Shown here piece after piece: positions 2,694-21,898 of a stretch of DNA of 34,202 nt (position 1 is its first letter; each line of letters begins with the position of its first letter). The stretch is from a virus: IMG/VR virus record IMGVR_UViG_3300021963_000391, positions 1 to 34,202 of that record. One strand, written 5' to 3'. The translations under genes were made by a program, and so were the position numbers. The notes below the pieces were generated by a model that saw only the letters and a program-made list of their open reading frames with translations, did not search any database and was not told the origin of the DNA.

Positions 2694-3140
2694 ATGTCCG
2701 ACATTACATGCACTGAAACAGCGACGTTGCTGAGTGAGGTAAGCCCACTTGGATGCCGCTCGCCGTGGGAGCGTGAGATGGCGAAGATTGCGCTTCTCAA
2801 TCGCATCGCGGACGGAGCCGGTACCGCTGCGGCCAATGCGGCGTCATTTGGAACTGTTCGTTCGGTTACCGTATCGACGACAATCGTTTCGACCGATTAC
2901 ACCATTCTGGCCGACGCAACATCCGGCCCGATCATTGTTTCGCTTCCACCCGCTGCGACGGCCAATGGGAGAATCTTTTGCGTGATTCGGACCAATTCTG
3001 GAGGCGCAAACAATGTCACCGTTGATCCGTACGCATCCGAAACGATCAATGGGGCTGCAAACCATGTTCTGACTTCGCAGTACAGCAGGATTGTATTCAC
3101 CAGCAACGGAACCGCGTGGTTCCTCATTGTGAACCAATAA
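2694..3140 (+). CDS. virion-associated protein with GCRSPWE N-terminal module
   Basis: A 148-residue protein with two parts. Residues about 4-40 form a helical Cys-containing module (ITCTE...EVSPLGCRSPWE...ALLNRIAD) that recurs at the start of the next gene. Residues about 50-148 are beta-rich: VSLPPAATANGRIFCVIRT, a GG-NNVTVDP segment, then SRIVFTSNGTAWFLIV. That pattern is common in small domains of phage fibres and tail appendages, where a flat repetitive beta fold describes a rigid spike. It lies just upstream of the S74 fibre gene, so I infer an accessory fibre or base protein. The next gene starts one base after its stop codon. Confidence 0.65.
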   Translation: MSDITCTETATLLSEVSPLGCRSPWEREMAKIALLNRIADGAGTAAANAASFGTVRSVTVSTTIVSTDYTILADATSGPIIVSLPPAATANGRIFCVIRTNSGGANNVTVDPYASETINGAANHVLTSQYSRIVFTSNGTAWFLIVNQ

Positions 3141-3392: not shown

Positions 3393-5030
3393 ATGGCACA
3401 GCAAACGATTAACGTAGGCGCAGCCCCGAATGACGGAACGGGAACACCGTTGCGTACGGCGTTCCAGTACACAAACAGCAACTTCAGCGAGCTGTACACC
3501 GCAACCGGACCGAGCGGCAACAACATCACCGTACCGGGAACCGCCACCATCAGCGGCGACCTGACGGTGGATACCAGCACTCTGAAGGTGGTTTCTGCGA
3601 GCGATGTCGTTGGAATCAATACCGCCTCTCCGCTTACCGGAACTGATGCCGGTTTGACGATTGGTGCGATTGGTACTGTAAAAGCCTTAAACATCGGCCT
3701 CCAGAACACGTTTGCTCGTTTGCGCGAAAAGGATGCCCTTGATGCGTTTGCAATAACGACAAACATGACCGCATTGAATACACAGGACGATGCTACCAAG
3801 TCATCTTGGAAAGCTCGGATGGGATTCGGAAACGGGAATGACAATTTTATAATTTCCCGTTCCGGTGTTGGTAGCACGACGTTTTACGATCTGCTTTCTG
3901 TTTCTACTGGTTCGTGCGTCTGGTACGACGGCGCAGGCGGCACTCGGATGACGTTGAATGCCACCGGCTTGGGCGTGGGTGCGAGTCCTCTTTCTGCATC
4001 AAAGCTGACGTTGAACGGTGGCACTGGAGACACGTCATCTCAAGATTCGATCTTCTCGTTAATCAGAACATCTTCCAACGGAAATGTTCTTACTGGAAAG
4101 GTTGTTCTAGCTCAAAAAACGACCGACTTCGGAAACATTGTTTTCCGAATCAAAACGACCGCTTCGTCTGCGGAAAACCCTGCGTATTACACCAATGCTC
4201 TTACAATAGACGGAGAAAATGGCAACGTCGGCATCGGGGTTACGCCGAGTGCGTGGGGAAATCAATATCGCGCTATTCAGATTTTCAACAACAGCGCACT
4301 CTACGGAGCTAACTCTTACGGTTATTACGGACTGTTGTTCAATGGATACAATGACAACACCAATATCAAAGCGATAGCTTCTTTGTATGTTGGAGAGTAT
4401 CGTTATGAGTTGTCCACCGGAGCGCACAAGTGGTTTGGAACCACTGCAAATGCGACGGCTGGAGCTACTGCTACACCAACGCAAGCGATGACGCTGGATG
4501 CGAGTGGGCGGTTGTTGGTTGGAACTGCAAATGCTTCAGTCACTTCTGAAACTGGATGTCGCTTGCTGCTTAATAACGGCGCAACTGGTCATTTCACTCT
4601 TGCTGTAACAACCAATCAAAGCACTGCCGCAACTTCGTGTTATGACTTTTATTCAACGTCTGCGGCAGCATATCGTTTTTACGTTACGTCAGCCGGTGTA
4701 ATCAACGCCACAAACACGACCATCTCAGCCATCTCCGATGCTCGGTTGAAGGAGAACGTGCAGGATATCGACGTTGGACTCGGTGCGATTCTCGCGCTGA
4801 AACCGCGCAAGTTCGACTGGAAAGCTGGTAAGGGTAAGGATATCAAAGGCGACAGAGGCTTCATCGCTCAGGAGTTTGAGCAGGTGTTTCCTAACCTCAT
4901 CGACGAGTGGAAAGACCCCGCTCCCGAAGGCGAAGCTCCTTACAAGTCCGTTCGCCAAGACCTCATTCCTGTGCTTGTGAAAGCCATTCAGGAACTCGCC
5001 GCCGAAGTCAACGCTCTGAAAAACGCCTAA
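3393..5030 (+). CDS. tail fibre with C-terminal S74 intramolecular chaperone
   Basis: A 545-residue fibre. The N-terminus (TINVGAAPNDGTGTPLRTAF...NSNFSELY, residues 4-35) is a virion-attachment type start seen in many phage fibres. Residues about 40-440 are repetitive beta-type sequence with phrases such as NGNVGIGVTPSAWG and MTLDASGRLLVGTA. Residues about 447-545 form a peptidase-S74/endosialidase-type chaperone: ISDARLKENV (S448, K453), the phrase RGFIAQEFEQVFP, and LIPVLVKAIQELAAEV at the end. In this family the domain helps trimerisation of the fibre and then usually cuts itself off at the Ser of SDxRLK. Both the Ser and Lys are present, so self-cleavage is expected. A likely receptor-binding protein. 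Confidence 0.9.
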   Translation: MAQQTINVGAAPNDGTGTPLRTAFQYTNSNFSELYTATGPSGNNITVPGTATISGDLTVDTSTLKVVSASDVVGINTASPLTGTDAGLTIGAIGTVKALNIGLQNTFARLREKDALDAFAITTNMTALNTQDDATKSSWKARMGFGNGNDNFIISRSGVGSTTFYDLLSVSTGSCVWYDGAGGTRMTLNATGLGVGASPLSASKLTLNGGTGDTSSQDSIFSLIRTSSNGNVLTGKVVLAQKTTDFGNIVFRIKTTASSAENPAYYTNALTIDGENGNVGIGVTPSAWGNQYRAIQIFNNSALYGANSYGYYGLLFNGYNDNTNIKAIASLYVGEYRYELSTGAHKWFGTTANATAGATATPTQAMTLDASGRLLVGTANASVTSETGCRLLLNNGATGHFTLAVTTNQSTAATSCYDFYSTSAAAYRFYVTSAGVINATNTTISAISDARLKENVQDIDVGLGAILALKPRKFDWKAGKGKDIKGDRGFIAQEFEQVFPNLIDEWKDPAPEGEAPYKSVRQDLIPVLVKAIQELAAEVNALKNA

Positions 5031-5400: not shown

Positions 5401-5546
5401 TTCACATCGAACTTACGCAGGAGCAGGCCAATAGCCTCCTCCAACTCATCGACATCGCAATCAAAGCCGGTGGCTACCAGAACGCCAAAGTCGGCGTTCC
5501 CATTGCCGACATCATCATCGCAGCCGCTCAACCCAAGCCCGAATGA
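5397..5546 (+). CDS. 49-residue protein of unknown function
   Basis: A very short gene recognised by context: its ATG overlaps the previous TGA (ATGA at 5397-5400) and its own stop overlaps the next ATG (ATGA at 5543-5546). The product starts MIHIELTQEQANSLLQLID, an amphipathic helix, followed by AGGYQNAKVGVPIADIIIAAAQ. The same general layout occurs in small phage proteins that sit between fibre and lysis genes, but I do not know the function. Unbroken coupling on both sides makes it likely real. Confidence 0.7.
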   Translation: MIHIELTQEQANSLLQLIDIAIKAGGYQNAKVGVPIADIIIAAAQPKPE

Positions 5547-5725
5547 AGAACTGGAAAACAACCGCTGGCGGCGTTGCCGTCCTGCTGGCCGCTATCAGTG
5601 TTGCCATCAAACAGGCCGTTGCCGGTGACATGGGTGGCGCAATCGCCGCCGCTGTCGGTGGTGCCGGTGCCATGTTTACCGCTCTCAAGGCCGCTGACGC
5701 GCAATCGGAGGACAAGACCAAGTGA
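5543..5725 (+). CDS. small membrane protein, holin-like
   Basis: A 60-residue protein with a basic start (MKNWKTT), two hydrophobic Ala/Gly/Val stretches (residues about 8-26 and 30-48) and a charged end (AADAQSEDKTK). Size, topology and its place at the head of a run of membrane proteins suggest a holin or lysis accessory. Such small two-helix proteins are common in phage lysis clusters, but the second stretch is rich in Gly/Ala and may not cross the membrane. Coupled by ATGA to the gene before and GTGA to the gene after. Confidence 0.65.
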   Translation: MKNWKTTAGGVAVLLAAISVAIKQAVAGDMGGAIAAAVGGAGAMFTALKAADAQSEDKTK

Positions 5726-6000
5726 AAGACCAGCTACGAGATTTAGGAATCAATATTGGCCTACTCGTAGCTGGCTTCGCTGGCTCTCTTGTCACGGTGA
5801 AGAAGGACGGACACAAGGACTGGTTCACAACGCTGACTTCGCTCCTCGCTGGAACGCTGTCGGCCAATTACCTCACCCCTGTGGTCGTTGACTTCTTCTC
5901 AATGAAAAACAGCAACACGCAGTACGCTGCGGCGTTCATCATGGGCTTCTTAGGACTCCACGGTGTCGAGTTCGTCATAGATCGGTTCCGAAGGAAATGA
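5722..6000 (+). CDS. three-helix membrane protein, putative holin
   Basis: A 92-residue protein with a GTG start that overlaps the previous stop (GTGA). Three hydrophobic segments are visible: residues about 10-25, 36-59 (containing LLAGTLSANYLTPVVV) and 67-86 (AAAFIMGFLGLHGVEFVI), with a lysine-rich loop between the first two and an RFRRK end. The LLAGTLSANYLTP segment with a following helix is typical of small phage holin-like proteins. It would sit in the inner membrane and form the lesion that times lysis. Which of the three adjacent membrane proteins is the true holin cannot be told from sequence. Confidence 0.65.
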   Translation: MKDQLRDLGINIGLLVAGFAGSLVTVKKDGHKDWFTTLTSLLAGTLSANYLTPVVVDFFSMKNSNTQYAAAFIMGFLGLHGVEFVIDRFRRK

Positions 6001-7205: not shown

Positions 7206-8405
7206 TCAGCGTCCTAGCGATTTCATCACGCTGGCAACGAAGTCTTCGCTCTTCGCAGAGTTTGTGCTTGCCGGTCGTGAGCCGCCGGTCGTCGCTTTCG
7301 AGGTAACTCCCGGCTCGCTGCCACGATACTTCGACAGTTCGGCTTGGAGACGCTTGTTCACCTCGACCTGAGCATAGAGAAGCTCGCGGTATTTTGGCGC
7401 AGCAGCAGCCCAAAGAGCAGCCTTGGCGAGGTCTTCTTCGCTGTTCTCACCGTTGAAGATTTGCTGCGCGAGGTTCAGACGCTCGTTCAGCTCGCCATTC
7501 CATTCCTCATCGCCTTCACGCGGCTCAAAGATTTCAAGCGCGCGAGCATTCTCGCTGACCTTGGCCCAAGTCTTACTGGCCGACTCCAATGCAGCCTTCG
7601 TACCCTCTTCGTTATCCTGCTGGTACTTCGAGATGATGGCGTCGTAATCGGACTTGGCTTCCGAAATCTCAGCGGAACGTTCGCCGTTAATCTCGTCGTA
7701 CTTCACGATCAGCGCGCCGAGCTTTGCCTTCTTGGACGGAGAAAGACCCTCAACGATGTCGTCGATCTGCGAGTTGCGGTAATCGCTCTCGGGCGACTTG
7801 AGTAGGCCAACGAGCCGTTCGCCATCGCTGCCAACAAGACTTTTCACCGATTCAAATACGCCATTGATCTTGCCTTCGTACTTCTTGACGAACTCAGGAT
7901 GACGTTCGACATCAAGAAGGCGGACACGCTCGGAAAGCGCATCACGCTCCTCCTGCAACGTCTTTAGCTGGGCTTCAAAGTTCGGATTGCTGGTTTTTCC
8001 AGCCTTCAATTCCTCAAGTTGTTTGGCCAACTGAGCCTTCTCTTCCTTGATCTTGCGAAACGCATCAGCGGCTTTAGTGGACTTGATCGTCTCGGGAATA
8101 TCGGAATCAGCGTCCGTAGAAGTCGGAGCGGCCTCGGCTTCGGGCTGCTGCTTCTTCGTACCGAACATCCGCTCGATGTCCATCTCAGCCTTGCTAAGTT
8201 TGGAGGCGTCTGCCGACTTCGTTTGCTTCGTAGGCTTCTGCTTCGCGGCTTTCGGCTCCTCAGTAACCTGCGATGCAACATTGGCCGACTCGTCAGCCGA
8301 TGCGGCGTCATCAATGCCGTTAGCCTTGAAAGCATCGATGAACGAGCTTCCGAAGTCGGGAGGTTGCGCCGAGTTGACGAGAGGTGAGTTCAGTGGTTCT
8401 TCCAT
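7206..8405 (-). CDS. scaffold-like head assembly protein
   Basis: A 399-residue acidic, almost entirely helical protein. Residues 1-80 are low-complexity Ala/Ser/Lys; 105-175 predict a coiled coil (KIKEEKAQLAKQLEELKAG, LKTLQEERDALSERVRLLDVE). The region to about 345 is helical and charged, and the C-terminus carries KYRGSEPG...RPASTN...DFVASVMKSLGR, a basic end such as scaffolds use to touch the shell. The layout and the late-gene position after portal support a scaffold; there is no catalytic motif. Unusually, the capsid gene is not next to it but on the opposite strand beyond the terminator. It could otherwise be an internal head protein. Confidence 0.65.
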   Translation of the reverse strand: MEEPLNSPLVNSAQPPDFGSSFIDAFKANGIDDAASADESANVASQVTEEPKAAKQKPTKQTKSADASKLSKAEMDIERMFGTKKQQPEAEAAPTSTDADSDIPETIKSTKAADAFRKIKEEKAQLAKQLEELKAGKTSNPNFEAQLKTLQEERDALSERVRLLDVERHPEFVKKYEGKINGVFESVKSLVGSDGERLVGLLKSPESDYRNSQIDDIVEGLSPSKKAKLGALIVKYDEINGERSAEISEAKSDYDAIISKYQQDNEEGTKAALESASKTWAKVSENARALEIFEPREGDEEWNGELNERLNLAQQIFNGENSEEDLAKAALWAAAAPKYRELLYAQVEVNKRLQAELSKYRGSEPGVTSKATTGGSRPASTNSAKSEDFVASVMKSLGR

Positions 8406-8411
8406 AATCTA

Positions 8412-8735
8412 TTAGTATTGCTTATCGAATGTTGCTTCTGGTTCTTTCGCTGTTTCAGTTACTGCCAATTTACGAAGGTTTTCAAGACAATGCGCGTAGC
8501 CAGCGGTTACACCGGCTGCGAAAATGATGTCCGATTCCTTGCTTCCATGCGACGGCATTGGAACCGGCATTGACTCTGCAACGATGCGTAATGCCATGCG
8601 GAGGACAGGCATGTTCAGGATCTGCGCTAGTTCAGCCTGTTGGCCATCAGTCTGCCAATCGGACAGATTGATGTCAGGCAGATCCAGCAGGTTCTTCGGA
8701 TTCTCCTTCTTCAAGCCTCTTAGCCAGTTGATCAT
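8412..8735 (-). CDS. small phage protein of unknown function
   Basis: A 107-residue protein. The first 20 residues are basic (MINWLRGLKKENPKN), the centre reads LAQILNMPVLRMALRIVAE, then a short MPVPMPSHGSKE linker and FAAGVTAGYAHCLENLRKLA. The ending of helix, loop, Gly-Tyr helix is seen in small proteins near head genes of other phages, without known role. Its first 62 bases overlap the end of the upstream beta-propeller gene in another frame; there is no later Met that would avoid the overlap and keep the conserved-looking part. Six bases separate it from the scaffold-like gene. Confidence 0.65.
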   Translation of the reverse strand: MINWLRGLKKENPKNLLDLPDINLSDWQTDGQQAELAQILNMPVLRMALRIVAESMPVPMPSHGSKESDIIFAAGVTAGYAHCLENLRKLAVTETAKEPEATFDKQY

Positions 8736-10020
8736 ATTTTGTTTTCTTGTTTCGTTTCAGTTTGTGCCTTTGCGGAATCGGATCGAGAACATCGTCGAGT
8801 TTGATTGGATTCTCCTTGTTGACGACATCGCGATTAGGTCTGATGACCTTTGTAATCTCCAGCAAATCAGATAACGGCAACTTGATGTACCCGCAGTCAA
8901 CATCGTTGATGCCGTACGAAACGACGAATTGATTCTTCGCGGAATCGTAGAATGCGCCGCACGGGAAGACGACTGCTGGAAGTCCCGGCCACCAGTCTTG
9001 CTGGTTGGTTCCGGTGAGGATCGGCAACGTCGTCATGCGGACAATGCGGAACGGGGCTTTTGCCTCAAATGCGTACGCCCCCATGTAGTAGCGACGCTTC
9101 TTGTTTATCCACGGCAAAGAGCTGTGGAAGAAGGTCCAATACAAGCCATCCACCAGAATCGGATTTGACCCGCCGCGAACCTCGCCAAATTTCCAGAGCG
9201 GATTGAACTCCTCGGTGACGTATTCGGCATCCTTCTCAAGACGTCCATTAAGGCGCACAACAACATGGGGATTGGCCGAATACACCATGTGTGGCGCATT
9301 GTCGTGGACGAAGTAGACCCAGTTCTTTTCATGGCCATCGTTAATCATGGCCTGCGCGTTGTTGTTTCCGTAGACCGTATCAAAACGTCCCACGTTTAAA
9401 AACTGGCTGTCCAAGAGAAACATCGCCTGATGCGCGTACGACTTGAGCGGAACAAACGTGCAGCAGCTCAGGCCGTACTTGTCTCCAAACTTAACGACGC
9501 GAGGATCTTCGAACTGCTCGTTTGGATATTGAAAAGTAAGCTGAACCAAAGCCTTTTTTATGGCTCTCAAATCTTTGCTCAACTCAAAGACAACGATGTC
9601 GTTTTTCTCGACATAGACATCCTCATCTTTTTCGCGTTTATTGCGGCATCGGCGAGCAAAGAGAAGGATTTTTCCACTAGGCTCCTCTCGCGTAATGGCT
9701 GGGTTGAAGTAGTATGTTCCAGCTTCTTTAGGGAGAATTATTTTCCCGACCTCCCAGTCAACTTGATGAGCTAGTTTGGGTACGTCGTTTTTTGCGTAGC
9801 TCATTAGAAACTCGGCTGCGAATTTGATTTCGTCGTACAGAGCAAGCCAGTGGTCGCGTTCCTCACGGACCTCGGTCAGATGCTCCTCATGCTCCTTTGT
9901 CCTGACATCTATTGTATTTTGTAAATTTTCGATCTGCATCAGAAGATCGGCATGCCCGTCACCTCCATTTGCGAATCGCTTGAGAGCTTTTATGGATAGG
10001 CTTCGAATGATGTCTTTCAT
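8674..10020 (-). CDS. GH130-like five-bladed beta-propeller protein with N-terminal coiled coil
   Basis: A 448-residue protein. Residues about 25-70 form a charged coiled coil (LMQIENLQNTIDVR, EHEEHLTEVREERDHW). From about 95 on the sequence follows the repeating pattern of the GH130 / furanosidase-like propeller: YYFNPAITR and KILLFARRCRN (104-126), EDPRVVKFGDKYGL (171-184), EKNWVYFVHD (231-240), VRGGSNPILVDGLYWTFFHSS (281-301, H299), YYMGAYAFEAKAPF, and FPCGAFYDSAKNQFVVSYG. In GH130 enzymes these motifs hold mannoside phosphorylase or hydrolase activity; I cannot tell whether this copy is active. The context of two glycosyltransferases and two methyltransferases supports carbohydrate work. 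The last ~40 residues are a Lys/Glu-rich tail overlapping the next gene. Confidence 0.75.
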   Translation of the reverse strand: MKDIIRSLSIKALKRFANGGDGHADLLMQIENLQNTIDVRTKEHEEHLTEVREERDHWLALYDEIKFAAEFLMSYAKNDVPKLAHQVDWEVGKIILPKEAGTYYFNPAITREEPSGKILLFARRCRNKREKDEDVYVEKNDIVVFELSKDLRAIKKALVQLTFQYPNEQFEDPRVVKFGDKYGLSCCTFVPLKSYAHQAMFLLDSQFLNVGRFDTVYGNNNAQAMINDGHEKNWVYFVHDNAPHMVYSANPHVVVRLNGRLEKDAEYVTEEFNPLWKFGEVRGGSNPILVDGLYWTFFHSSLPWINKKRRYYMGAYAFEAKAPFRIVRMTTLPILTGTNQQDWWPGLPAVVFPCGAFYDSAKNQFVVSYGINDVDCGYIKLPLSDLLEITKVIRPNRDVVNKENPIKLDDVLDPIPQRHKLKRNKKTKYDQLAKRLEEGESEEPAGSA

Positions 10021-10650
10021 TCACGCATACAAATTTGAATTCTCCTGAGTGGCCAGTCTTGGAAGAATTCCGTAGAAGTTCATCCTGGGCATTGAATCGA
10101 CCAGCATTTGGATGTCGATTGGACACCAAACTTTTTGATTTGTCTCAAGCAATTTGCATGCGCCTTCGTAGTTTACGAGGTAGCAGTGCGTACACATTCC
10201 GCGAACGAGCTTGTAAAGGTTGGACGCGATGTGTCCATGATCCTCAATCGGATCAGCGCAGCAGCTTCCAATGTAAACGACATGCCAGTCATTTGGGAGA
10301 TGATCGAGATTTTCTGACAACTTATCCTTCCAGTCAGCACATGTGAACTCAACATCATCTTCTACAACCAAGAAGGTGCGATGATCAGTTGTTTTCGATT
10401 CAACCATCCACTTGATGGCCGACCAAATTGAAAAGTGACTCAATCCAGCAACGATGGTTTTTACTTTTATTTTTTCTTTTTCAGTCGAGTGATAGTAATC
10501 GGTGGATATTCCGCAGTTGTCTGATCTAAATCCGTAAATTGGAACTGCATCGATTCCAAAAGTCTTCATGTACCGGATGCAGCGTCTTTCCTTTTTGTTT
10601 TCAGGTTTTGAAACTATGAAGCAAGGTGTATTCTCAAGTTTTATTTTCAT
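10021..10650 (-). CDS. GT25-like glycosyltransferase (copy 1)
   Basis: A 209-residue protein resembling family GT25 (LPS beta-galactosyltransferase / procollagen galactosyltransferase type). Seen: a start FIVSKPENKKERRCIRY typical of the nucleotide-sugar domain, GLSHFSIW (69-76), the acidic metal-binding motif VVEDDVEF (E97-D98-D99), WHVVYIGSCC, CTHCYLVNYEGACKLLE and PIDIQM. It shares the GSCCA, CTHCY and PID-QM elements with copy 2 (11242-11844), so the two are paralogues. The sugar and acceptor are unknown. Coupled by ATGA to the methyltransferase before it and adjoining the propeller gene after it. AT-richer than the packaging genes, suggesting separate acquisition. Confidence 0.8.
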   Translation of the reverse strand: MKIKLENTPCFIVSKPENKKERRCIRYMKTFGIDAVPIYGFRSDNCGISTDYYHSTEKEKIKVKTIVAGLSHFSIWSAIKWMVESKTTDHRTFLVVEDDVEFTCADWKDKLSENLDHLPNDWHVVYIGSCCADPIEDHGHIASNLYKLVRGMCTHCYLVNYEGACKLLETNQKVWCPIDIQMLVDSMPRMNFYGILPRLATQENSNLYA

Positions 10651-11237
10651 CGGTTCGGAAGGATGTAAATTATTCCCCGACGCGCTCCGGTAGATCGGCT
10701 TGGGTGGTTATAGTAAAAACTGTATCCGTATCTTTGTGTTTGTGTTTTTGCCCTGTAAATTGAGTCCAATTTCTGCTTGATGTATCCAAGGCAAATGTCG
10801 TGGCCTTTGTAACTGTCGTATCCGAGTTCCCCGGTTGGTTCCCTGCAATCGTGAATGGCGATTACCGGATGCAGATCATAACGATTGATTGTCTCAAGCT
10901 CATCAAGCAGCGGAAGATAATCGTTCCAGTGAGCATCAAGAAAAAAAATTGTATCGTGTCCAACTCCGTGATGCGGAATGAACCAGTTCATGCAGGACTC
11001 GCTGCTTCCCTCAAACATTTCGACGTAGACATTCTCTCTCTTGAATCTTTCCTTGGCCTTCTCAACGCGATCATGGTCTAGCTCGCATGAAACGGTTTTG
11101 AGGAAGTTTTTTGCAAGCCAGATAGTTGTATCCCCTTTGTGAGTTCCAGTTTCAACGGCAGTTGTCAGCTCAAAGCGTTCTTTGAGATAAAGAAACTCCT
11201 GCTCGATAAATGTGTCCCCGTTGAAAGGTGAATCCAT
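10647..11237 (-). CDS. class I SAM-dependent methyltransferase-like protein
   Basis: A 196-residue protein. AVETGTHKGDTTIWLA (residues 27-42) matches the SAM-binding glycine loop; CELDHDRVEKAKERF is the acidic end of the next strand; DTIFFLDAHW followed by LLDELETINRY and VIAIHDC fits the rest of the Rossmann-type core. The acceptor is unknown; such genes beside glycosyltransferases often cap or decorate sugars. The start at 11237 leaves 4 bases after the previous stop, while the longer frame from 11276 would overlap by 35 bases and add 13 residues. ATGA overlap with the next glycosyltransferase. Confidence 0.75.
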   Translation of the reverse strand: MDSPFNGDTFIEQEFLYLKERFELTTAVETGTHKGDTTIWLAKNFLKTVSCELDHDRVEKAKERFKRENVYVEMFEGSSESCMNWFIPHHGVGHDTIFFLDAHWNDYLPLLDELETINRYDLHPVIAIHDCREPTGELGYDSYKGHDICLGYIKQKLDSIYRAKTQTQRYGYSFYYNHPSRSTGARRGIIYILPNR

Positions 11238-11241
11238 AATT

Positions 11242-11844
11242 TTAATCAGATAAATGGCAGTCTTCTTGGTCGGCAACTCGCGGAAAAATCGTGAAGCACC
11301 TCAGATGTTGCCTACTTTTGAAGTACATCTGCAAATCGATTGGTGCGAAAATTTCCTCGTTAGTGTCGATCAGTGTTTTTAGTGCCTTTTTCCGCACGAT
11401 GTAGCAGTGGGTGCAAAGAGCCATACCCTCGAACAAATTTGAATCAAACTCCCTGCCCATTCTTCCGCTCGCGCAACATGAACCGGGATACAGGATATCC
11501 CAATCATGTGGCAACTTTGTCAGGGCGAGTTCAACGGTTTCTCTCCAGTGCGGACGAAAAATGATGTCGTCTTCCAGAATCATCACCATGTCTGGAGTGG
11601 ACGGCTCAAAATCGAGAGCATTCCAAAGCATCCAGTGGGACATGCTGCATCCAACATGTTTTGCCCCGATGAGATATCCAGAGCCTGGGTTGTCCACTTC
11701 GTACGGAATGCTTGCCTTGAGTCCAGACCTTGCCCCATTCAGCCCATAGAAAATGCGGTAGTCCGTGATTCCAGCGGAATCAAGATTGGTTTGCAAACGC
11801 GGGATGCGGGAGCTGCCACGCATCGTGATAACAACCGTATGCAC
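11242..11844 (-). CDS. GT25-like glycosyltransferase (copy 2)
   Basis: A 200-residue protein paralogous to the product of 10021-10650. It begins MHTVVITMRGSSRIPRLQTN with the expected first strand, has CSMSHWMLWNAL (66-77), the metal motif MILEDDIIF (E91-D92-D93), WDILYPGSCCASG, CTHCYIVRKKALKTLI and PIDLQMYF, and ends FPRVADQEDCHLSD, close to the PRLATQENSNLYA end of copy 1. A second copy suggests that two sugars are added in order or to two acceptors. Four bases upstream is the methyltransferase at 11849. Confidence 0.8.
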   Translation of the reverse strand: MHTVVITMRGSSRIPRLQTNLDSAGITDYRIFYGLNGARSGLKASIPYEVDNPGSGYLIGAKHVGCSMSHWMLWNALDFEPSTPDMVMILEDDIIFRPHWRETVELALTKLPHDWDILYPGSCCASGRMGREFDSNLFEGMALCTHCYIVRKKALKTLIDTNEEIFAPIDLQMYFKSRQHLRCFTIFPRVADQEDCHLSD

Positions 11845-11848
11845 GGGG

Positions 11849-12466
11849 TTATTTCAGTTTTCGATAAATGGCGAAGCAGCTTTCGTTCAGGTCAAAGCGA
11901 GAGATAAATTCGCAACGCTTGAGAACGAACTTCAACGCGGTTTGCGTCGATTCCCAGTTCACATCATCCATGATGATGTATCCGCCAACCTTGAGCTTTG
12001 GAAGCCAGTTGACGACATCGCTCGTAGACGGCCATTCGGCGTGATTTGCGTCGATATGAACCATGTCCATATCTGGCAGGAATCGCGATGCATCCCAAGA
12101 CGACATACGGCAGAATTGGATGTGGCGAACAACCTGAGCGCGAACGCAGTGGCGCACAAAAGCCTCGTAGTGGTTGTCCAAATCGAGTTTTGACCACCAC
12201 TCTTGGTTCGCGCTCACCTCGTCATCGATGCAGTCTTCTTTCTTCCAAGAGTCGATAGCATAGACGGTTCCGCTTCCGTTCAACTTGCATGCTTGCGCGA
12301 GAGCGAGCGTTGACTTGCCTTCAAAGACGCCAATTTCAGCGATTCGTTGCGGCTTTGTTTCAAGAACAAGTTTGGCAATTTCCAAACCTTTTCTCGGGTC
12401 GCACCAGCCAGCCATCTGGCGGAAGTTTTCTAGGATGAACTGAGCTATTTTTTCTTCGTTTTCCAT
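11849..12466 (-). CDS. class I SAM-dependent methyltransferase-like protein
   Basis: A 205-residue protein of the family used for sugar or small-molecule methylation. RIAEIGVFEGKSTLALAQA (41-59) is the SAM loop, VYAIDSWKKED the next strand, MDMVHIDANHAE carries the acidic residue, and LKVGGYIIMDDVNW is the late-strand signature of this group (Methyltransf_24 type). It is not closely similar to the other methyltransferase in the cassette. It begins 2 bases after the portal stop, so the sugar cassette is transcribed with the packaging genes. The substrate is unknown. Confidence 0.8.
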   Translation of the reverse strand: MENEEKIAQFILENFRQMAGWCDPRKGLEIAKLVLETKPQRIAEIGVFEGKSTLALAQACKLNGSGTVYAIDSWKKEDCIDDEVSANQEWWSKLDLDNHYEAFVRHCVRAQVVRHIQFCRMSSWDASRFLPDMDMVHIDANHAEWPSTSDVVNWLPKLKVGGYIIMDDVNWESTQTALKFVLKRCEFISRFDLNESCFAIYRKLK

Positions 12467-12468
12467 AC

Positions 12469-14718
12469 TTATCCCTGACGCGCCAAGTTGGACTCGGCAG
12501 TTGCATTCGCTCGCTGAATATCAGCAGTTGTCTTTGCATTCCGGCGCGACAGATCAGCCATCGCCTTCGTGTTCTGACGCTGAATGTTGGCCATAGTCTC
12601 GGCGTTCTGGCGAGCGATTTTTGCCTGAACTTCAGCGTTGAGGACAGCGGTCTTCGGATCGACGCCCTGCTGAATTGCCTGAGCCTGCTGCATCTGCATC
12701 TGGGCTTGCTGCTGTTCGGCCAACAAATCGCCAAGCTGCTGGATGGTGTCGGACAAAATCTGAAGCTGTTGGCGATAGGCATCCGCCTGTTGGCGACGGG
12801 TCGGATCGGTCGATAGACGCAGCAGATGATCTTGAACATGCTGACCGATACCTTGAAGGAAGAGGACAATCTCCTGCGGATTGCCACCCTGCTGAAGCGA
12901 CGCAGCAGCCTCGTTGGCAGCGGCTAGGTGCGTGTCGATGTGGACGATGTGATTCTGCGTGTCAGTGACGATTGCCATGTTCCCTTGGCGCAAGGACGAA
13001 TGCTCCAGAACAGCCAGCGCGGTCTGATCTTGAACTCGCGAAGACTGGATCTGAGTCGGCAGATAACGATCCACCATTTGTTGGCCAACCTGAGCGGCGA
13101 TGTAGTCGCGCAACAAGCTGACTTTGCCACCCTCGGGCAGAGAGCCGAGTAGGCCAAGCAATGAGCCAAGAAGCTGCTGCTTCGCAAACTGAGAACCTTG
13201 GCCGACTGTGCGCGTCGCTTCCACGAAGTCGATATCAAGCATGGCTTGAACTGGAACGCCTCGTTCAGCGCAGCGACGTTGGAATTCAATCGCGTCCTTA
13301 TCCGACTTGGTAATCGGATTCAGGTTGGGATTGGAGGCTCGGTTGTACCGTTCTTCGAAGAAAGAATCGAGCTGGTTGTAATACCGACTCAGTTGGGTCT
13401 TACCGATGGCTGATTGCTGGGAGACAATCGCTTGGATTTCGGTGGCAGTGCGAGGGTTGCCAGACGGTTTGTTGAGCGATTGGCGATACTGAGAGAGATT
13501 GCCTTGAAGAACATTCTCAAGGTCCGCGTTGACCGCCATAGGAGCGTCCAGAACGCCAGCAATGTTCTGCTGAATGACTTCGTAGTCTGGCGGGAGAATG
13601 GCATACGGTCCTTGTTGAACGACGCTGGTCTTGCTGAGAGCGTTCGGGTTGAGGGGGCGGAAGAGAATCTGGGTGCGAGCGAATGCGCTGTCCACCATCG
13701 AGCAGCGGAGACGGTTCTTCAGCTCCATCGCCTGAAGCATCTTGATTCCAAGACCCTTCACGCCGTGATGCTCGCCATCGCCACGGTCGTAGTACATCGG
13801 GTGGATGATCTGCTCCCACCGCTTGTACCGACGGAGCTTGCGATACATGAAGTCTTCACTGTCACGCTCATCGATGATGGCATGGCTGATCTGACCATCG
13901 AACTCCTTGTAGAAGATGTGCGACATCAGCACTACCTCTGACCGCGCGCTGAACGTGATGTCGTTCGAGCGAAGCTGACGCTGGAAAAACTCCCAATCGT
14001 ACTGAACACCGGAGCGATACGGCTCGGGCATGGCAGCGCGAATACGCTGGCGAACGTAGTCCACGTTCCAACCAGCAGCCCTTGCAGCTTCCTCGTCCTG
14101 AATCTTCTCAAACAGATCGTCAACGCCCATACGGGTGCGGACGCAGGCCACCTTCCAGTCGCTGACGTTTGATTTGGTGCCGTCTGGGACGAGAAGGTCG
14201 GTAGCCATGATGGCTTTGCATCGCCAGTTGGAACCGTCTTCGAAGATCAGCGGACCATCGCCAATGAGAACCATCTCTCGCTGCGAGAGCTGCATGATGT
14301 AGTCGAAGTCCTTGTCGAGCTTCTGGAGGCGGTCAAACTCTTCGGTGATGATCTTCGACCATTCCTCCCGCTTATCCATGTCGTTGCCGTAAGCAGTACG
14401 GACATTCGCATAGGTCGGAACCTCGGCGAACACATCGTAGAAGGCAGACATGGCCAACGTCAGAAACGCCTCCGACTCACGGAAGTTGACGTTGGTACGG
14501 AACGCTTGGTTGTTCCGGCGAAGTTCAGCGGGGTTGTACGGCGGATTGCCATCGACCAAGCCACGGAGCTTTGCGCGGGTGTTGTTACGAAGCTCGTCCG
14601 CAGAAATCAGCTTTTGGAAGATTTCGCGAGCCGATGCCGCGTCCGCAATCCGCGTCTCTGGAGGGGTTCCGTTTTCGTTGAGCGTCTCCAGCGGCAGTTG
14701 AGCTATGTTTCCGTACAT
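12469..14718 (-). CDS. portal protein
   Basis: A 749-residue portal, the dodecameric ring through which DNA enters and leaves the head. Support: position two genes after terminase, length as in podovirus-type portals, the early pattern LRNNTRAKLRGLVDGNPPYNP typical of such portals, a long helical middle (SREMVLIGDGPLIFEDGSNW is not repeated elsewhere), and a Gln-rich helical C-terminus (QQQAQMQMQQAQAIQQ) that would form the barrel. The last 55 residues (694-748) are five 11-residue repeats of the type NAxxxAxIxRQ. The start overlaps the preceding gene by 16 bases. The assignment rests on context and overall character rather than a single catalytic motif. Confidence 0.85.
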   Translation of the reverse strand: MYGNIAQLPLETLNENGTPPETRIADAASAREIFQKLISADELRNNTRAKLRGLVDGNPPYNPAELRRNNQAFRTNVNFRESEAFLTLAMSAFYDVFAEVPTYANVRTAYGNDMDKREEWSKIITEEFDRLQKLDKDFDYIMQLSQREMVLIGDGPLIFEDGSNWRCKAIMATDLLVPDGTKSNVSDWKVACVRTRMGVDDLFEKIQDEEAARAAGWNVDYVRQRIRAAMPEPYRSGVQYDWEFFQRQLRSNDITFSARSEVVLMSHIFYKEFDGQISHAIIDERDSEDFMYRKLRRYKRWEQIIHPMYYDRGDGEHHGVKGLGIKMLQAMELKNRLRCSMVDSAFARTQILFRPLNPNALSKTSVVQQGPYAILPPDYEVIQQNIAGVLDAPMAVNADLENVLQGNLSQYRQSLNKPSGNPRTATEIQAIVSQQSAIGKTQLSRYYNQLDSFFEERYNRASNPNLNPITKSDKDAIEFQRRCAERGVPVQAMLDIDFVEATRTVGQGSQFAKQQLLGSLLGLLGSLPEGGKVSLLRDYIAAQVGQQMVDRYLPTQIQSSRVQDQTALAVLEHSSLRQGNMAIVTDTQNHIVHIDTHLAAANEAAASLQQGGNPQEIVLFLQGIGQHVQDHLLRLSTDPTRRQQADAYRQQLQILSDTIQQLGDLLAEQQQAQMQMQQAQAIQQGVDPKTAVLNAEVQAKIARQNAETMANIQRQNTKAMADLSRRNAKTTADIQRANATAESNLARQG
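12475..12639 (-). repeat. five 33-bp units coding 11-residue helical repeats in the portal tail
   Basis: Residues 694-748 of the portal read NAEVQAKIARQ, NAETMANIQRQ, NTKAMADLSRR, NAKTTADIQRA, NATAESNLARQ. Asn at position 1, a hydrophobic at position 8 and Arg at position 10 are fixed in all five. Eleven-residue periodicity points to a right-handed hendecad coiled coil, extending the barrel or forming a plug inside the head. Confidence 0.75.
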
Positions 14719-15338
14719 GGTCGTTTTTTCCAGCAGTGAGCCGGTAAGTTTTCGTTCTCTGTAGCGTCCGTGAAGCGGTGAAGTGTTTCAATGGGAAACC
14801 ACACCATGCTTCTGATAAAGCAACCACAAAATTCACAGCTCTGAACCTGCTCATCGTATGGCGTACTGCCGTGCTGCGAGAAGGTTTTTACAGCTTCTTT
14901 GAGGACGCGAGCATTGCATCCGGTACATCCAAGTGGCTTGCGATTGAACCGGCAACCTGAGCAGATGTTTGCGCGGCGGTTGGCTTCTTCTTGGCTGACT
15001 TTGCCGCCTCCAACCGTCAGGCCATGAAGCAAACTCATGCTGAACCGGATAACGTCGCCAATCTGGAGCGACTTCCGGCCTGCTGGTTTTGGAATTTCAA
15101 CGTCGTCGTAAGCGCAATCGGCACCATTTTTACAGATGTACTCCAGCATCAAGTCGTCCAAATTTGGCGGGACTTCAATGGCGTTGGCGGCGTAATGCCT
15201 CCTGACAAATTCGTGGAGTTGCGGCCATGATCCTGCGAAAACCTCGATTCCGGTTTCTGGAACGCGATAAATCCAACCGCCTGGAAGCCCACGATGATCG
15301 TTTAACAGCTTGTATCCGGTATTTGATCCGTACGTCAT
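14703..15338 (-). CDS. Cys-rich zinc-binding-type protein between terminase and portal
   Basis: A 211-residue protein. The N-terminal half (to about 100) has GGWIYRVPETGIEVFAGSWPQL and a DLMLEYICKNGADC helix. The C-terminal half holds two paired-Cys elements: ICSGCRFNRKPLGCTGC and SCEFCGCF, then HCWKKRPC, enough ligands for one or two zinc ions. Proteins of this type commonly sit between terminase and portal in environmental phages, possibly in packaging or head completion; no enzyme motif is present. The start forms ATGA with the terminase stop. Confidence 0.7.
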   Translation of the reverse strand: MTYGSNTGYKLLNDHRGLPGGWIYRVPETGIEVFAGSWPQLHEFVRRHYAANAIEVPPNLDDLMLEYICKNGADCAYDDVEIPKPAGRKSLQIGDVIRFSMSLLHGLTVGGGKVSQEEANRRANICSGCRFNRKPLGCTGCNARVLKEAVKTFSQHGSTPYDEQVQSCEFCGCFIRSMVWFPIETLHRFTDATENENLPAHCWKKRPCTET

Positions 15339-17011
15339 AAATCGTCGTAGTAAATTGAATCGGCGTCTCGAACGAGCTTTTCCCAGACTTTATCCATCTT
15401 GGTTGCTCGCGGTTCAAGAACGGAAGTCTTTCGAACCAAATCAAGAAGGACAACAGCGGCATCGGCCAAGTCTGGCGATTTTCCGGTTCGTTGTTTCATC
15501 ACGGTCTTGGATTCGACGGATATCTTCCGCTTTCCGTCATCGAACATGCGCGCGCAAAACTCTTGAAGCGTCTCGATATCCATGCCCCCGATGCGCTCTT
15601 CGACGACCCACTTTCGCATTGAGAACCAGAGTTCAGTCACCTTGCGGTCGTAAGCCTCATTGCATGGCCGACTATCCTCGTCACTGACCGGAATTGTCGA
15701 TGGAGAGCCGCCGAACTCAACGCGATGAACAACTCCCCATTCGCGAGTCAGAATGTCCGCAAGACCGCCACCCTCACCGCTTGAATCAAGGGCGAACTTG
15801 TCAGGCGGCACTCCCCGCTTGTTGCACTCTTCCTTGACTCGATTGGCTATCTGGTAGTGAACAGGCTCAGTTAGCTGTGCATTGGGCGAAATGTGGATGA
15901 TATCGCCAAAAAGTATGCTAACTTTATCGTTAGCAGTGCCAACCTTGGCAAAGCGAAGGATACACCTGTCACCGCCGAATCCTGGGTCGAGAGCAGCCAC
16001 AGTTTCGACGTTTGTACTAAACACCAACTTTTTTGTAGGTGTATGCGTATCAATGAGCGATTCGGACAGCACCGTCTTGACCATGCCGTCAGGACTCCAG
16101 AATCCGCGCGTGTACTTCCAGAAAGTAGGACTCTGCTCGCCCTCATGGCGCATCGCTGACAAGACCTGATCGTGGGTGATGAGGTATGGGTATTTTGTCC
16201 GACCCTCGCTGATGTTCGGACTCTTCATGCCGTCGAACCGTCGGCACATACCGCGTTCCGTCAGCCAATGTTGGTCTTCAATCGTGACGCTGCGCCATCC
16301 TTTGGCAGGAGTGCAGAATCGGCCATGAGGATCGAACTTGGATGCCGGATTGCCGATGACCAGCATCTTAAACTCGCGGCAACCCTTGCTGAGGTTGGTA
16401 CATGCCTCGAATGCTGCTTCAGGGGTGTCCGTCGCTTCGTCGATGATGACCATCACCCGCTCGGCGTGAATACCCTGAATGTTGGCCACAGCCTTCGAAG
16501 TGTTGCCCTCGGCGACGGCAATGGCTGAAATCGAATGGCGGTCGTCACCTTTAATAGCCTGCAACGCCATCTTCGAATCGACCATGTTGCCGGGGAAACC
16601 GCGCGATTTCCGAACAAGATCCTGAAGATTAGCCCACATGCGCTTTCGGATCATCTTCGCGGTCGTCGATGTCAGGACAACCGTTGACTTGGCAGGGTTG
16701 GCCAGCCACCAGACTGTCGCGAAAAGCGTTGCGCCAAAGGTCTTTCCGCTCGCGCCGCACCCGGCCCACCCAACGTAGTCATGCTCGCAGAGGCTTTCGA
16801 CTTGAGCTTCCAGCCACGGGTTCCAACTGAGCTTTGGCCATAGCATTTTCGTCGCATTCTGAAAATGTTCGAAAGTGCCTAATCCGCCCTCGTTTGGCTG
16901 AAGTCGGTTTCGGAATGCGTAAAGTTCCAGCTCTAGGTCAGGAATCTTGACCGGAGAACGAATTCCATACTTGTGCTGAATAAGTTGATGCTCAGACGCT
17001 TGCTCTGCCAT
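15335..17011 (-). CDS. terL: terminase large subunit
   Basis: A 558-residue DNA-packaging motor ATPase with C-terminal nuclease. ATPase: Walker A GCGASGKT (84-91), a following TVVLTSTTAKMIRKR strand, Walker B VMVIIDEA (186-193) and a VIGNP coupling segment (218-222). Nuclease of RNase H type: AALDPGFGGD (D342), FALDSSGEGG (D409) and SPDLADAAV (D514/D517) supply the acidic metal ligands. ATG 17011 was chosen over 17077 because the longer frame would run across the start of the divergent fibre gene; 54 bases then remain between the two starts. No small terminase was recognised in the window. Confidence 0.95.
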   Translation of the reverse strand: MAEQASEHQLIQHKYGIRSPVKIPDLELELYAFRNRLQPNEGGLGTFEHFQNATKMLWPKLSWNPWLEAQVESLCEHDYVGWAGCGASGKTFGATLFATVWWLANPAKSTVVLTSTTAKMIRKRMWANLQDLVRKSRGFPGNMVDSKMALQAIKGDDRHSISAIAVAEGNTSKAVANIQGIHAERVMVIIDEATDTPEAAFEACTNLSKGCREFKMLVIGNPASKFDPHGRFCTPAKGWRSVTIEDQHWLTERGMCRRFDGMKSPNISEGRTKYPYLITHDQVLSAMRHEGEQSPTFWKYTRGFWSPDGMVKTVLSESLIDTHTPTKKLVFSTNVETVAALDPGFGGDRCILRFAKVGTANDKVSILFGDIIHISPNAQLTEPVHYQIANRVKEECNKRGVPPDKFALDSSGEGGGLADILTREWGVVHRVEFGGSPSTIPVSDEDSRPCNEAYDRKVTELWFSMRKWVVEERIGGMDIETLQEFCARMFDDGKRKISVESKTVMKQRTGKSPDLADAAVVLLDLVRKTSVLEPRATKMDKVWEKLVRDADSIYYDDL

Positions 17012-17065
17012 AGTTTGGCCTTGCAATAGTTCTCGCTGGACTTGACGTTCTGCGAAAGGAAAATT
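17012..17065. promoter_or_regulatory. divergent promoter region
   Basis: Only 54 bases separate the terminase start (leftward) from the collagen-like fibre start (rightward), so promoters for the two largest operons must overlap here or lie inside the first codons of each gene. No clear -35/-10 pair was found. The right-hand gene has a ribosome site AAAGGAAAA 4-5 bases before its ATG. Confidence 0.45.
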
Positions 17066-18271
17066 ATGCCGTCGCAACTTGTTTCTTCATCCGGCTGCTG
17101 CCAGCCTTGCGACTCCGAGCCGGTAGTCGTGAATATTCCCGGCCCTCAAGGGGCCGCTGGAATCAACGGCACCAATGGCACGAACGGAATCGATTCGTTC
17201 ACCTACACGACAGCCCAGTTTTTTGTTCCCGGCCTTGGCTCAACGGTCGTTGTTCCAGTCGATAATTCCGATTTTCTTCCCGAATCGGTTGCTGGTCAGT
17301 TTTTTGTCTCGATTCAGGGTGTTGGTTACATGCAGGTTCTGGATGTAACTGGGCTTCTTGTAACGCTAAAAAATCCTGCTACTGGGGTTCTTGGAATTGC
17401 CAATGCGGTTCCAGGGACAGCGATTCCGTCCGGTTCGCTCATCACGCTTGCTGGAGCAGTTGGACCTCAGGGTGCTTCCGGTGCTTCCGGCGGCGCGCCA
17501 GTTGGAGCTTCTTACGTTTGCCGCACATCGGACGGAACGCTAACAAACGAAACTGCCCTCGACTCGCTGTCAGCCGGTTACATGAAGACCGCCGGTTCTG
17601 GCGGTGCTGGCGTCGTCTCGACGGTTGCGACGGTTCCTGTGGCCGACATCAGTGGCACGTTGCCGATTGCAAATGGCGGCACGAATGTCACGACCGTTCC
17701 AACCAATGGTCAGCTTCTGATCGGCAATGGAACCGGATACACGGTGGCCAGCTTGACCGCTGGTTCAAACGTCACGATTACACCCGGTGTTGGTTCGATT
17801 ACAATCGCAGCAACGACTGCCACGCCGTTCAACTACGTCACGTTCACTCGAAGGCTGACCGGAAACAATCTGATTGCTTCTGGAGACACCAAAAATCCGT
17901 TTAATTCAACTTCATTTCCATCAGGATCTTGGACAACGCTTGACCCTTCGGCAGGATTTACTGCTGCAACAGGTCGATTCACAGTTCCGTACACCGGATA
18001 CTACAAAATTAACGTTCTGCTCAATTTGCTTGGTAGTGCTGGCGTTTCGAGTGTCATCGTTTTTCTTCGTAAGAATGGTTCAAACATTTTGCAGAGCTTG
18101 GAATTTAACGCCACAAACGCTTCTCCTCAGAGCCTTGTTCCGGTTTCACTTTCGTACATCGACCAAGCTGCCGCCACAACCGATTACTACGACATATTGG
18201 TTCAGGCTTCCAATTTTGGAGTCAACGTTGCAGCCGGAAGCTCATTCTCTGTTCAACGCATTCAGGCTTAA
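17066..18271 (+). CDS. collagen-like fibre protein with C1q-type head
   Basis: A 401-residue structural protein. Domains: Cys-rich start (SSSGCCQPCDSE, 7-18); Gly-X-Y collagen-like run GPQGAAGINGTNGTNGI (26-42); a beta domain often repeated in phage fibres (FFVPGLGSTVVVPV ... NAVPGTAIPSGSLITLAG, 52-130); a second short collagen run (130-144); a fibre shaft with IANGGTNVTTVPTNGQLLIG; and a C-terminal domain (about 265-401) with the C1q/TNF-like pattern GRFTVPYTGYYKINVLLNL, VIVFLRKNG and FSVQRI. Such trimeric proteins decorate heads or tails and bind surfaces. Start 17066 is supported by AAAGGAAAA; the frame is open to 17042. First gene of Block C. Threonines in the collagen run could be acceptors for the GT25-like enzymes (inference). 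Confidence 0.8.
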   Translation: MPSQLVSSSGCCQPCDSEPVVVNIPGPQGAAGINGTNGTNGIDSFTYTTAQFFVPGLGSTVVVPVDNSDFLPESVAGQFFVSIQGVGYMQVLDVTGLLVTLKNPATGVLGIANAVPGTAIPSGSLITLAGAVGPQGASGASGGAPVGASYVCRTSDGTLTNETALDSLSAGYMKTAGSGGAGVVSTVATVPVADISGTLPIANGGTNVTTVPTNGQLLIGNGTGYTVASLTAGSNVTITPGVGSITIAATTATPFNYVTFTRRLTGNNLIASGDTKNPFNSTSFPSGSWTTLDPSAGFTAATGRFTVPYTGYYKINVLLNLLGSAGVSSVIVFLRKNGSNILQSLEFNATNASPQSLVPVSLSYIDQAAATTDYYDILVQASNFGVNVAAGSSFSVQRIQA

Positions 18272-20930: not shown

Positions 20931-21898
20931 AGCTAATCGTTCAGGACATTCGCTCCACAATCGCTCGGGTCATCGGTGTATGTGTCGATGATGCGCGCGT
21001 TTATGATTACATCAATCAGGCGTGTCGAAGGCTTCTGCACAAGGGGTTGTGGGCTGGCGCGTACGGACGCTTCACGATTCATACCGTCGGCGGCTGCATC
21101 ACTTGGCCGCGTCAAATCGAAACCATCGAAGCTGTAGCCGATTGCTGCGGAGTCGGGACGGTTCGCAACCAATGGTTCGAATTTCAGGAGACTGGCTATG
21201 GACTGCTCAACGGGAATCAGGTGTGCATCGGCAAGCAGCTTATTGACCGTGGCACTGTGGTTTCTTACCGCGACATGTCTGGCGGTCTTAACAGCTATCT
21301 TCGAGTCTACCCTGGTGACGCTTCGGACGTTGGCAAAACCATCACGTTGCAGGGCGTCGATCAGAACGGTCAGTGGATTCGAACGCAGTCGGGTTTAACA
21401 TGGATTGACGGAGAAAAGCTGACGCTCGCTTTGCCGTACGTTCAATCGACCAAGAAGTTCACCGAACTGACCGGCGTCATCCGCGAGGCAACGAACACGG
21501 TTAGCCGATTGTACGAGTACAATGCGACGACCGCGCTGGAATCGGATCTGGCAGTTTACGACCCTGATGAAACTTTGCCGCAGTATCGTCGTAGCTACCT
21601 TGCTGACCGATGTAGCGACGAGGCTGACAAGCCGGTGACGGTCATGGCCAAGATGCGCCACATCAACGCTACGAGCGTCAACGACTACCTCATTCCTCCG
21701 TGTCCTGACGCCATCAAGCTGATGGTCATGGCGATTCGCAAAGAAGAGAACGATTTGATTCAGGAAGCAGTGGCCTACGAAGCCAAAGCGGTTCAAGCTG
21801 TGCAGGAGCAGACGATGCAGTACCTAGGCGATGCGGTTGCTACCATTCGCATGGTGGGCGTCGGATTGAACGGCGGAGGATTCTCCCAATGGTTTTGA
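20927..21898 (+). CDS. tail adaptor-type protein (gp11 / head-to-tail connector-like)
   Basis: A 323-residue protein with the layout of podovirus tail tubular protein A: a helical start (VQDIRSTIARVIGVCVDD, VYDYINQACRRLLHKGLWAG) that packs below the portal, a central beta region (about 85-200), and a helical end (CPDAIKLMVMAIRKEENDLI, AVAYEAKAVQAVQEQTMQYL). The phrase INQACRRLL...W.G is seen in adaptor proteins of many phages. It would join portal to the nozzle-like protein encoded two genes upstream. Its end contains a good ribosome site (GGAGG at about 21880) for the following gene, which it overlaps by 10 bases. Confidence 0.7.
   Translation: MKLIVQDIRSTIARVIGVCVDDARVYDYINQACRRLLHKGLWAGAYGRFTIHTVGGCITWPRQIETIEAVADCCGVGTVRNQWFEFQETGYGLLNGNQVCIGKQLIDRGTVVSYRDMSGGLNSYLRVYPGDASDVGKTITLQGVDQNGQWIRTQSGLTWIDGEKLTLALPYVQSTKKFTELTGVIREATNTVSRLYEYNATTALESDLAVYDPDETLPQYRRSYLADRCSDEADKPVTVMAKMRHINATSVNDYLIPPCPDAIKLMVMAIRKEENDLIQEAVAYEAKAVQAVQEQTMQYLGDAVATIRMVGVGLNGGGFSQWF

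Follow-up and report, generated by a model that had tools for sequence, protein, structure and literature searches.

Glycosyltransferase and methyltransferase genes are exchanged at a fixed position beside the portal-like gene in a group of environmental phages

The leftward gene run of the IMG/VR virus record IMGVR_UViG_3300021963_000391 contains two glycosyltransferase (GT) genes, two S-adenosylmethionine (SAM)-dependent methyltransferase (MT) genes, and a gene for a protein resembling members of glycoside hydrolase family GH130, all of them between a portal-like and a scaffold-like gene. The whole record, 34,202 nucleotides (nt), was analyzed and is referred to here as the window. The record probably covers only part of a genome of some 45 kb. 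In one relative (G003; 46,856 nt), both ends carry an exact 245-nt repeat. We designated the interval from the portal stop codon to the GH130 start codon as the slot. From its head leftward, the run reads:

15335 to 17077, minus strand: large terminase subunit (TerL), head of the leftward run (PHROG phrog_2, 1.8e-23).
12469 to 14718, minus strand: portal-like protein of 749 amino acids (aa), adjoining TerL, 87 to 96% conserved in relatives; upstream border of the slot.
11849 to 12466, minus strand: MT24 (family F1), SAM-dependent O-methyltransferase-like protein (Pfam Methyltransf_24, 4.4e-21); first slot gene.
11242 to 11844, minus strand: GT25a (family F0), GT25 glycosyltransferase with an EDD motif (Pfam Glyco_transf_25, E 1.4e-10).
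10647 to 11237, minus strand: MT25 (family F3), class I SAM methyltransferase (weak match to Pfam Methyltransf_25, 0.0024).
10021 to 10650, minus strand: GT25b (family F2), second GT25, paralogous to GT25a (Pfam, E 6.4e-5); final slot gene.
8674 to 10020, minus strand: GH130-like protein with an N-terminal helical extension (Pfam Glyco_hydro_130, 4.5e-10); core gene bordering the slot.
8412 to 8735, minus strand: small protein of 107 aa between the GH130-like and scaffold-like genes.
7206 to 8405, minus strand: scaffold-like protein of 399 aa, named by position and size.

The original prediction had described a compact, A/T-rich cassette at 8674 to 12466 encoding two GT25-like enzymes, two different SAM methyltransferases, and a GH130-like protein. 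Profile matches agreed with these coordinates and enzyme identities, and no relatedness was detectable between MT24 and MT25. The five genes all read from the minus strand, with gaps of 0 to 4 nt or an ATGA overlap between neighbors. MT25 was first called as 10647 to 11276 with a TTG start, overlapping GT25a by 35 nt. The ATG at 11237 is the preferred start because it turns this overlap into a 4-nt gap and because matches of several relatives begin there. With this start, the spacings from the portal-like to the GH130-like gene are 2 nt, 4 nt, 4 nt, the ATGA overlap, and 0 nt. Promoter- and terminator-like sites were no commoner in the leftward run than in shuffled sequence. Because there are no intergenic gaps and such sites are at chance level, late coexpression of the cassette with the head genes is plausible. 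The A/T richness was also borne out: the GC content of the four GT and MT genes is 0.42 to 0.49, versus 0.56 for the portal-like gene and 0.53 for TerL, and across relatives it is 0.483 for the GT and MT genes versus 0.555.

The GT25a product scored 41.9 bits against the Pfam GT25 cutoff of 24, and GT25b, at 23.3 bits, fell slightly below that cutoff. GT25b is 30% identical to GT25a (E 8e-28), and both match PHROG 2835, a glucosyltransferase (1.6e-9 and 3.5e-9 for GT25a and GT25b, respectively). The acidic residues E91, D92, and D93, an ExDD-type or DxD-type motif, are invariant across GT25a, GT25b, and a third GT25 family found in relatives (F7). Assignment to GT25 thus follows from the profile for GT25a and from paralogy for GT25b, and sugar transfer is the predicted activity of both. 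MT24 resembles an O-methyltransferase of known structure (PDB 3cbg, 5.5e-5) and also matches phrog_2675, which is annotated as a DNA methyltransferase. MT25 has a recognizable SAM motif beside its weak Pfam match. Overall, GT25a, MT24, and the GH130-like protein have solid family matches, and that of MT25 is weak but consistent.

The portal-like protein matched no profile in Pfam, PHROG, or PDB, and hhalign comparison with T7 gp8 and with the genes beside TerL of a Salinibacter phage was negative; the scaffold-like protein had no Pfam or PHROG family match. A structure model of the portal-like protein, built at low alignment depth, had a pLDDT of 37 and was of too low quality for comparison. 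Searches of INPHARED with the portal-like protein or the major capsid protein (MCP) found no cultured relative. "Portal-like" and "scaffold-like" are names given by size and by gene order, both beside the recognized TerL and in a sister clade described below. The placement of the cassette between portal and scaffold genes in the original prediction agrees with this order, but the names of both borders derive from position and size rather than from a family match.

Relatives were collected by IMG/VR searches with the GH130-like and portal-like proteins, keeping the best 80 matches per search, and thus comprise fairly close relatives only. Dozens of contigs were recovered, among which the GH130-like gene is about 84 to 90% identical and the portal-like gene about 89 to 97% identical. 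Where the loci reach, the gene order is constant: TerL, a 211-aa protein, portal, slot, GH130-like gene, small gene, and scaffold, followed by convergent fiber and MCP genes. Of the distinct portal loci that extend far enough downstream, 71 of 71 contain the GH130-like gene. The five-gene unit of the original prediction is therefore better divided: only the GT and MT genes are exchanged, and the GH130-like gene belongs to the backbone. The slot itself holds GT and MT genes only. Its proteins cluster into nine families, five of GTs (F0, F2, and F7 are GT25; F4 is of the GT32 type [Gly_transf_sug, 3.8e-12]; F8 is GT7C/GT2-like) and four of MTs (F1, F3, F5, and F6).

The 79 distinct slots fall into 10 architectures. 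No slot is empty: all contain at least one GT and one MT, the usual numbers being one to two GTs (rarely more) and one to three SAM MTs. The window's type, F1-F0-F3-F2, accounts for 29 slots, followed by F4-F5-F1-F0 (18 slots), F4-F5-F7-F6 (10 slots), F8-F3-F2 (8 slots), F4-F7-F6 (5 slots), F1-F0 (4 slots), F1-F0-F3-F2-F6 (2 slots), and three singletons. Particular GTs and MTs remain neighbors across these types: among the 79 slots, F1-F0 are adjacent in 53, F3-F2 in 41, F4-F5 in 29, and F7-F6 in 15. It had been suggested that the same cassette might be found at other genome positions in related phages. This was not the case, as relatives of GT25a were anchored to the portal or GH130-like gene in all 56 viral loci in which they were found. 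The locus is thus one fixed position with variable content.

Slot type does not follow the phylogeny of the flanking genes closely. On a 63-row DNA tree of the portal and GH130-like genes it requires at least 23 changes, with a possible minimum of 8 and a mean of 35.8 for shuffled types. Backbones that are about 97% identical up to both slot borders carry slots that have no BLASTN match to each other, as in the pairs L114/L119 and L077/L111. For example, L114 and L119 are 93 to 99% identical per 200 nt in the 2 kb that end at the portal stop and in the 2.4 kb that begin at the GH130 start, but the L114 slot is F8-F3-F2 and the L119 slot is F4-F7-F6, with no BLASTN match between them. In other pairs, part of the slot is common at 66 to 79% identity and the rest differs. 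These comparisons demonstrate that the slot genes are swapped, with whole genes replaced at gene borders, a pattern consistent with homologous recombination within the conserved flanks.

Within their families the slot genes are conserved. The median dN/dS was 0.07 for MT24 (53 relatives), 0.05 for GT25a, and 0.03 for MT25 (15 relatives), and the medians within cassette genes (0.03 to 0.07) are like those of the terminase and portal. These low ratios indicate that the enzymes are maintained and that diversity arises by replacement. Strong purifying selection and the recurrence of the same genes in dozens of contigs also argue that the locus is not a product of chance. INPHARED contained no more than three weak matches to GT25b and MT24, and none to the GT32 of relatives.

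A contig of 92,531 nt, IMGVR_UViG_3300021962_000056 (L221 to L225), contains the window at 99.95 to 99.98% identity joined to a second, distant phage; window positions 5504 to 5775 are absent at the ends of this contig. The contig was not accepted as one larger genome; a composite of two phages is the better reading, and the second of these phages exists as a group of its own (67 loci). The sister-clade homologues of TerL, portal, and scaffold lie in the same order with 30%, 24%, and 22% identity (E 5e-5 for the scaffold). The distance from portal to scaffold was 254 to 260 nt in 51 of 51 sister-clade loci, a small open reading frame of about 85 aa fills the empty site, and no relatives of the GTs, MTs, or GH130-like protein were detected in these loci. 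The block is thus either a clade-specific insertion or was lost in the sister clade. Of these two readings, gain by insertion into an ancestral layout that was already compact is the simpler.

The GH130-like protein scored 39.4 bits against the Glyco_hydro_130 curated cutoff of 26. Its nearest relatives in PDB are beta-1,2-mannobiose phosphorylases (5b0p and 7fip; 1.8e-5 for Lin0857). The residues E171-D172-P173-R174 are invariant in 28 homologues and align to GIEDAR of Lin0857; we take the Asp of this ED[AP]R segment to be the catalytic residue of the family. Many further residues are invariant too, and with the EDPR segment they make it likely that the protein is an active enzyme. Scores against the NCBIfam phosphorylase equivalogs were far below cutoff (47.1 of 550 and 43.4 of 450 bits). 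By these profiles the protein is related to, but is not, a beta-1,2-mannobiose phosphorylase equivalog. It shares sequence similarity and the invariant ED[AP]R motif with GH130 phosphorylases, but the relationship is distant and the phage protein has an extra N-terminal helical region. An AlphaFold2 model from a shallow alignment, made to look for the five-bladed beta-propeller fold of the family, had a poor pLDDT of 41. GT108 enzymes have a fold and mechanism in common with GH130 and are dual transferase-phosphorylases (PMC8950772), and thus a synthetic role for the GH130-like protein is possible. One profile, phrog_28262 (765 positions), gave two weak matches in different parts, one with the GH130-like protein (7.7e-5) and one with the relatives' GT32 (3e-4), which hints at a fused form elsewhere and suggests that the two may act together. 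The constancy of the GH130-like gene beside a changing GT and MT set suggests that it may provide a step shared by all types.

The favored interpretation of the locus, to which we give an even chance, is that the cassette builds short O-methylated glycans on virions late in infection. The GH130-like protein and the variable GT and MT set, encoded in one leftward run with terminase, portal, and scaffold, would use host nucleotide sugars to decorate a surface protein of the virion with a short O-methylated oligosaccharide. The GH130-like protein would perform the common step, and the swapped GT and MT genes would add the outer sugars and methyl groups. The sugar donors would come from the host because neither the window nor the complete relative G003 yielded a recognizable nucleotide-sugar synthesis gene, in a scan that did not take in every small open reading frame. 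Recombination between the conserved portal and GH130 genes would replace the set between them and create a new glycotype. In this scheme we infer late expression, O-methylation of sugars, a virion acceptor, and a selective benefit. The further proposal of a combinatorial glycotype locus, in which whole GT and MT cassettes swapped exactly at the portal stop and GH130 start give near-identical virions different O-methylated glycans, falls a little short of an even chance.

Several points weigh against virion glycosylation. The glycan, the glycoprotein, and the acceptor are all predictions read from genes. GH130 enzymes mostly degrade or phosphorolyse mannosides, and the MTs could have targets other than sugar. 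MCP sequence had no positive association with cassette type, although a conserved acceptor would not require one. The association between fiber and cassette type was nearly nil (partial r = 0.087, P = 0.026). Furthermore, a GT at a comparable late position in 'Gratiaviridae', an uncultured gut phage family, was read by its authors as acting on the host envelope (PMC8008677), so that late position alone does not decide between a virion and a host target.

Twelve other genes were tested against cassette type. Slightly positive associations were seen for five (P = 0.002 to 0.03), and once the twelve tests are allowed for, these are at most marginal. The five are the GH130 gene, the gene for a collagen-like protein, its neighbor, 2694 to 3140, and 95 to 727. 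The collagen-like protein is encoded beside TerL:

17042 to 18271, plus strand: tail protein with a short collagen-like repeat (GPQGAAGINGTNGTNGID; PHROG tail fiber, 4.9e-6).

Its residual association with cassette type is weak (r = 0.158, P = 0.004). Collagen galactosyltransferases belong to GT25, and on this ground, together with the slight association, the protein may be conjectured to be a glycan acceptor. Its collagen-like stretch (GPQGxxGTNGTNGTNG) is nearly unchanged in relatives, and the rest of the protein is about 64% identical. The tail fiber with an S74 chaperone (3393 to 5030) is hypervariable in relatives in both length (about 340 to 960 aa) and C terminus, and some relatives do not have the S74 end.

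The main rival explanation, possible but unlikely, is that the enzymes remodel the host surface. The GTs and MTs would modify lipopolysaccharide (LPS) core or capsule late in infection, superinfection would be blocked or progeny kept off debris, and the set would be swapped as receptor use changes. Pfam describes GT25 as an LPS biosynthesis family, and the 'Gratiaviridae' authors proposed this role for the GT that lies between the portal and capsid genes of those phages (PMC8008677). This possibility predicts coupling between fiber and cassette. The weak residual association is in its favor, but the two are almost uncoupled though both vary strongly, which is a mild argument against it. In addition, no membrane-bound Gtr-type gene was recognized, no promoter of the cassette's own stands out, and the genes are packed inside the structural run. 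Modification of a nonsugar part of virion or host proteins, or of non-LPS host glycoproteins, with no virion glycan, is improbable. In its favor, the substrates of class I SAM methyltransferases are very diverse, but the stable GT-MT pairing and the recruitment of GT25, GT32, and GT7/GT2-like enzymes to one slot point to sugar as the common theme.

The similarity of the GH130-like protein to beta-1,2-mannobiose phosphorylases, its closest solved relatives, raises the possibility that it and its companions are metabolic auxiliary genes that process host storage or surface mannosides for energy. This is very unlikely, as biosynthetic GTs and MTs always accompany the GH130-like gene, the equivalog cutoffs are far from reached, and the genes sit in the structural run. 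We give least credence to DNA modification, in which the GTs would glycosylate hypermodified bases and the MTs would methylate DNA. Base-acting GTs are known in phages such as T4, some relatives have other DNA-modifying genes (QueC in G002 and a C5 methylase in G003), and MT24 matches the phrog_2675 annotation noted above. However, among the largest remaining open reading frames of G003, no hydroxymethylase or base oxygenase was recognized, just ThyX and the C5 methylase, and MT24 matches families of sugar and small-molecule O-methyltransferases. These two findings make DNA modification unlikely, and to our knowledge GT25 is not a family of DNA glycosyltransferases.

Some features of the genomes lie outside the slot. 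A PAPS-reductase-like gene at 31481 to 32350 (phrog_424, 2.4e-36) is replaced at the same site in the relative G002 (L228:1540-2115) by QueC (1.8e-45) and a protein without a family match that by eye resembles TGT/DpdA. This site is a second exchangeable spot, possibly for DNA base modification. In the run of tail genes, 21889 to 22455 encodes a half-length citrate-synthase-like protein (Pfam Citrate_synt C-terminal domain, 2.1e-9); 19 fetched loci have this gene, and other loci that cover the site do not. The 181-aa protein of 22445 to 22990, which has no Pfam or PHROG match, co-occurs with it; by eye its N terminus (GLPRFGSAFMS) is like a sulfotransferase PAPS-binding motif. The only match in GTDB genomes was L161 (CAITJF010000097.1), a 4.8-kb phage contig with the GH130-like and scaffold genes that is binned in an uncultured Nitrosomonadales metagenome-assembled genome. 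The portal gene was searched for in that genome and not found. A single 4.8-kb contig is too weak a basis for naming Nitrosomonadales as the host.

The best analogue is the distal glycan machinery of chlorovirus PBCV-1. There, A064R, with two GT domains and an MT domain, and A061L, an MT of 209 aa, attach the outer sugars of the capsid glycan and O-methylate them; alterations of this machinery give rise to antigenic classes (PMC9614988). The likeness lies in virus-encoded GTs and SAM MTs of about 200 aa for outer, O-methylated sugars. In contrast, PBCV-1 is a eukaryotic virus with N-glycans, fused GT domains, and other GT families, and it varies by mutation and deletion, whereas the phages studied here vary by replacement of whole cassettes. 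Mycobacteriophages (Che8 gp110, Corndog gp38, and Myrna) show that tailed phages can use GTs of their own to modify the capsid and tail proteins of their virions (PMC12363180, PMC11256854). They are unrelated to the present group. In Maravista the GTs lie near the 3' end of the genome, not between portal and scaffold, and the accessible portions of the two reports describe no modular exchange. 'Gratiaviridae' share a GT gene at a late structural position (portal-MCP), but the GT is accompanied by a HipA-like kinase and an ATPase and is read as modifying the host capsule, with no methyltransferases or cassette swapping reported in the part of that account available (PMC8008677).

Neither the glycosylation of virions by phage-encoded enzymes nor the exchangeable surface-glycan locus is new by itself. 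Bacterial O-antigen and capsule loci, as well as phage seroconversion genes, combine conserved flanks with exchangeable GT and modification genes. The phage slot differs from the O-antigen and capsule loci in that it sits in a virion operon and no polymerase, flippase, or nucleotide-sugar synthesis genes were recognized. In the open-access literature we found no account of GT25 cassettes in phages and none of near-identical phage backbones that exchange whole GT and MT genes at a fixed slot among their head genes.

Glycosylated virions have been demonstrated for few phages, and the modification is mostly discussed as a shield against mammalian antibodies. The phages considered here are an environmental group without a known vertebrate connection, yet they fill the slot in every locus examined, and the set switches faster than the capsid genes diverge. 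A slot that is always filled and switches rapidly implies strong, changing selection on the product of the enzymes. Near-identical backbones with different cassettes are thus natural matched pairs with which the purpose of phage-encoded glycosylation may be tested. If the proposal of a combinatorial glycotype locus is correct, this position in the head-gene run would be a bacterial-virus counterpart of O-antigen and capsule switching.

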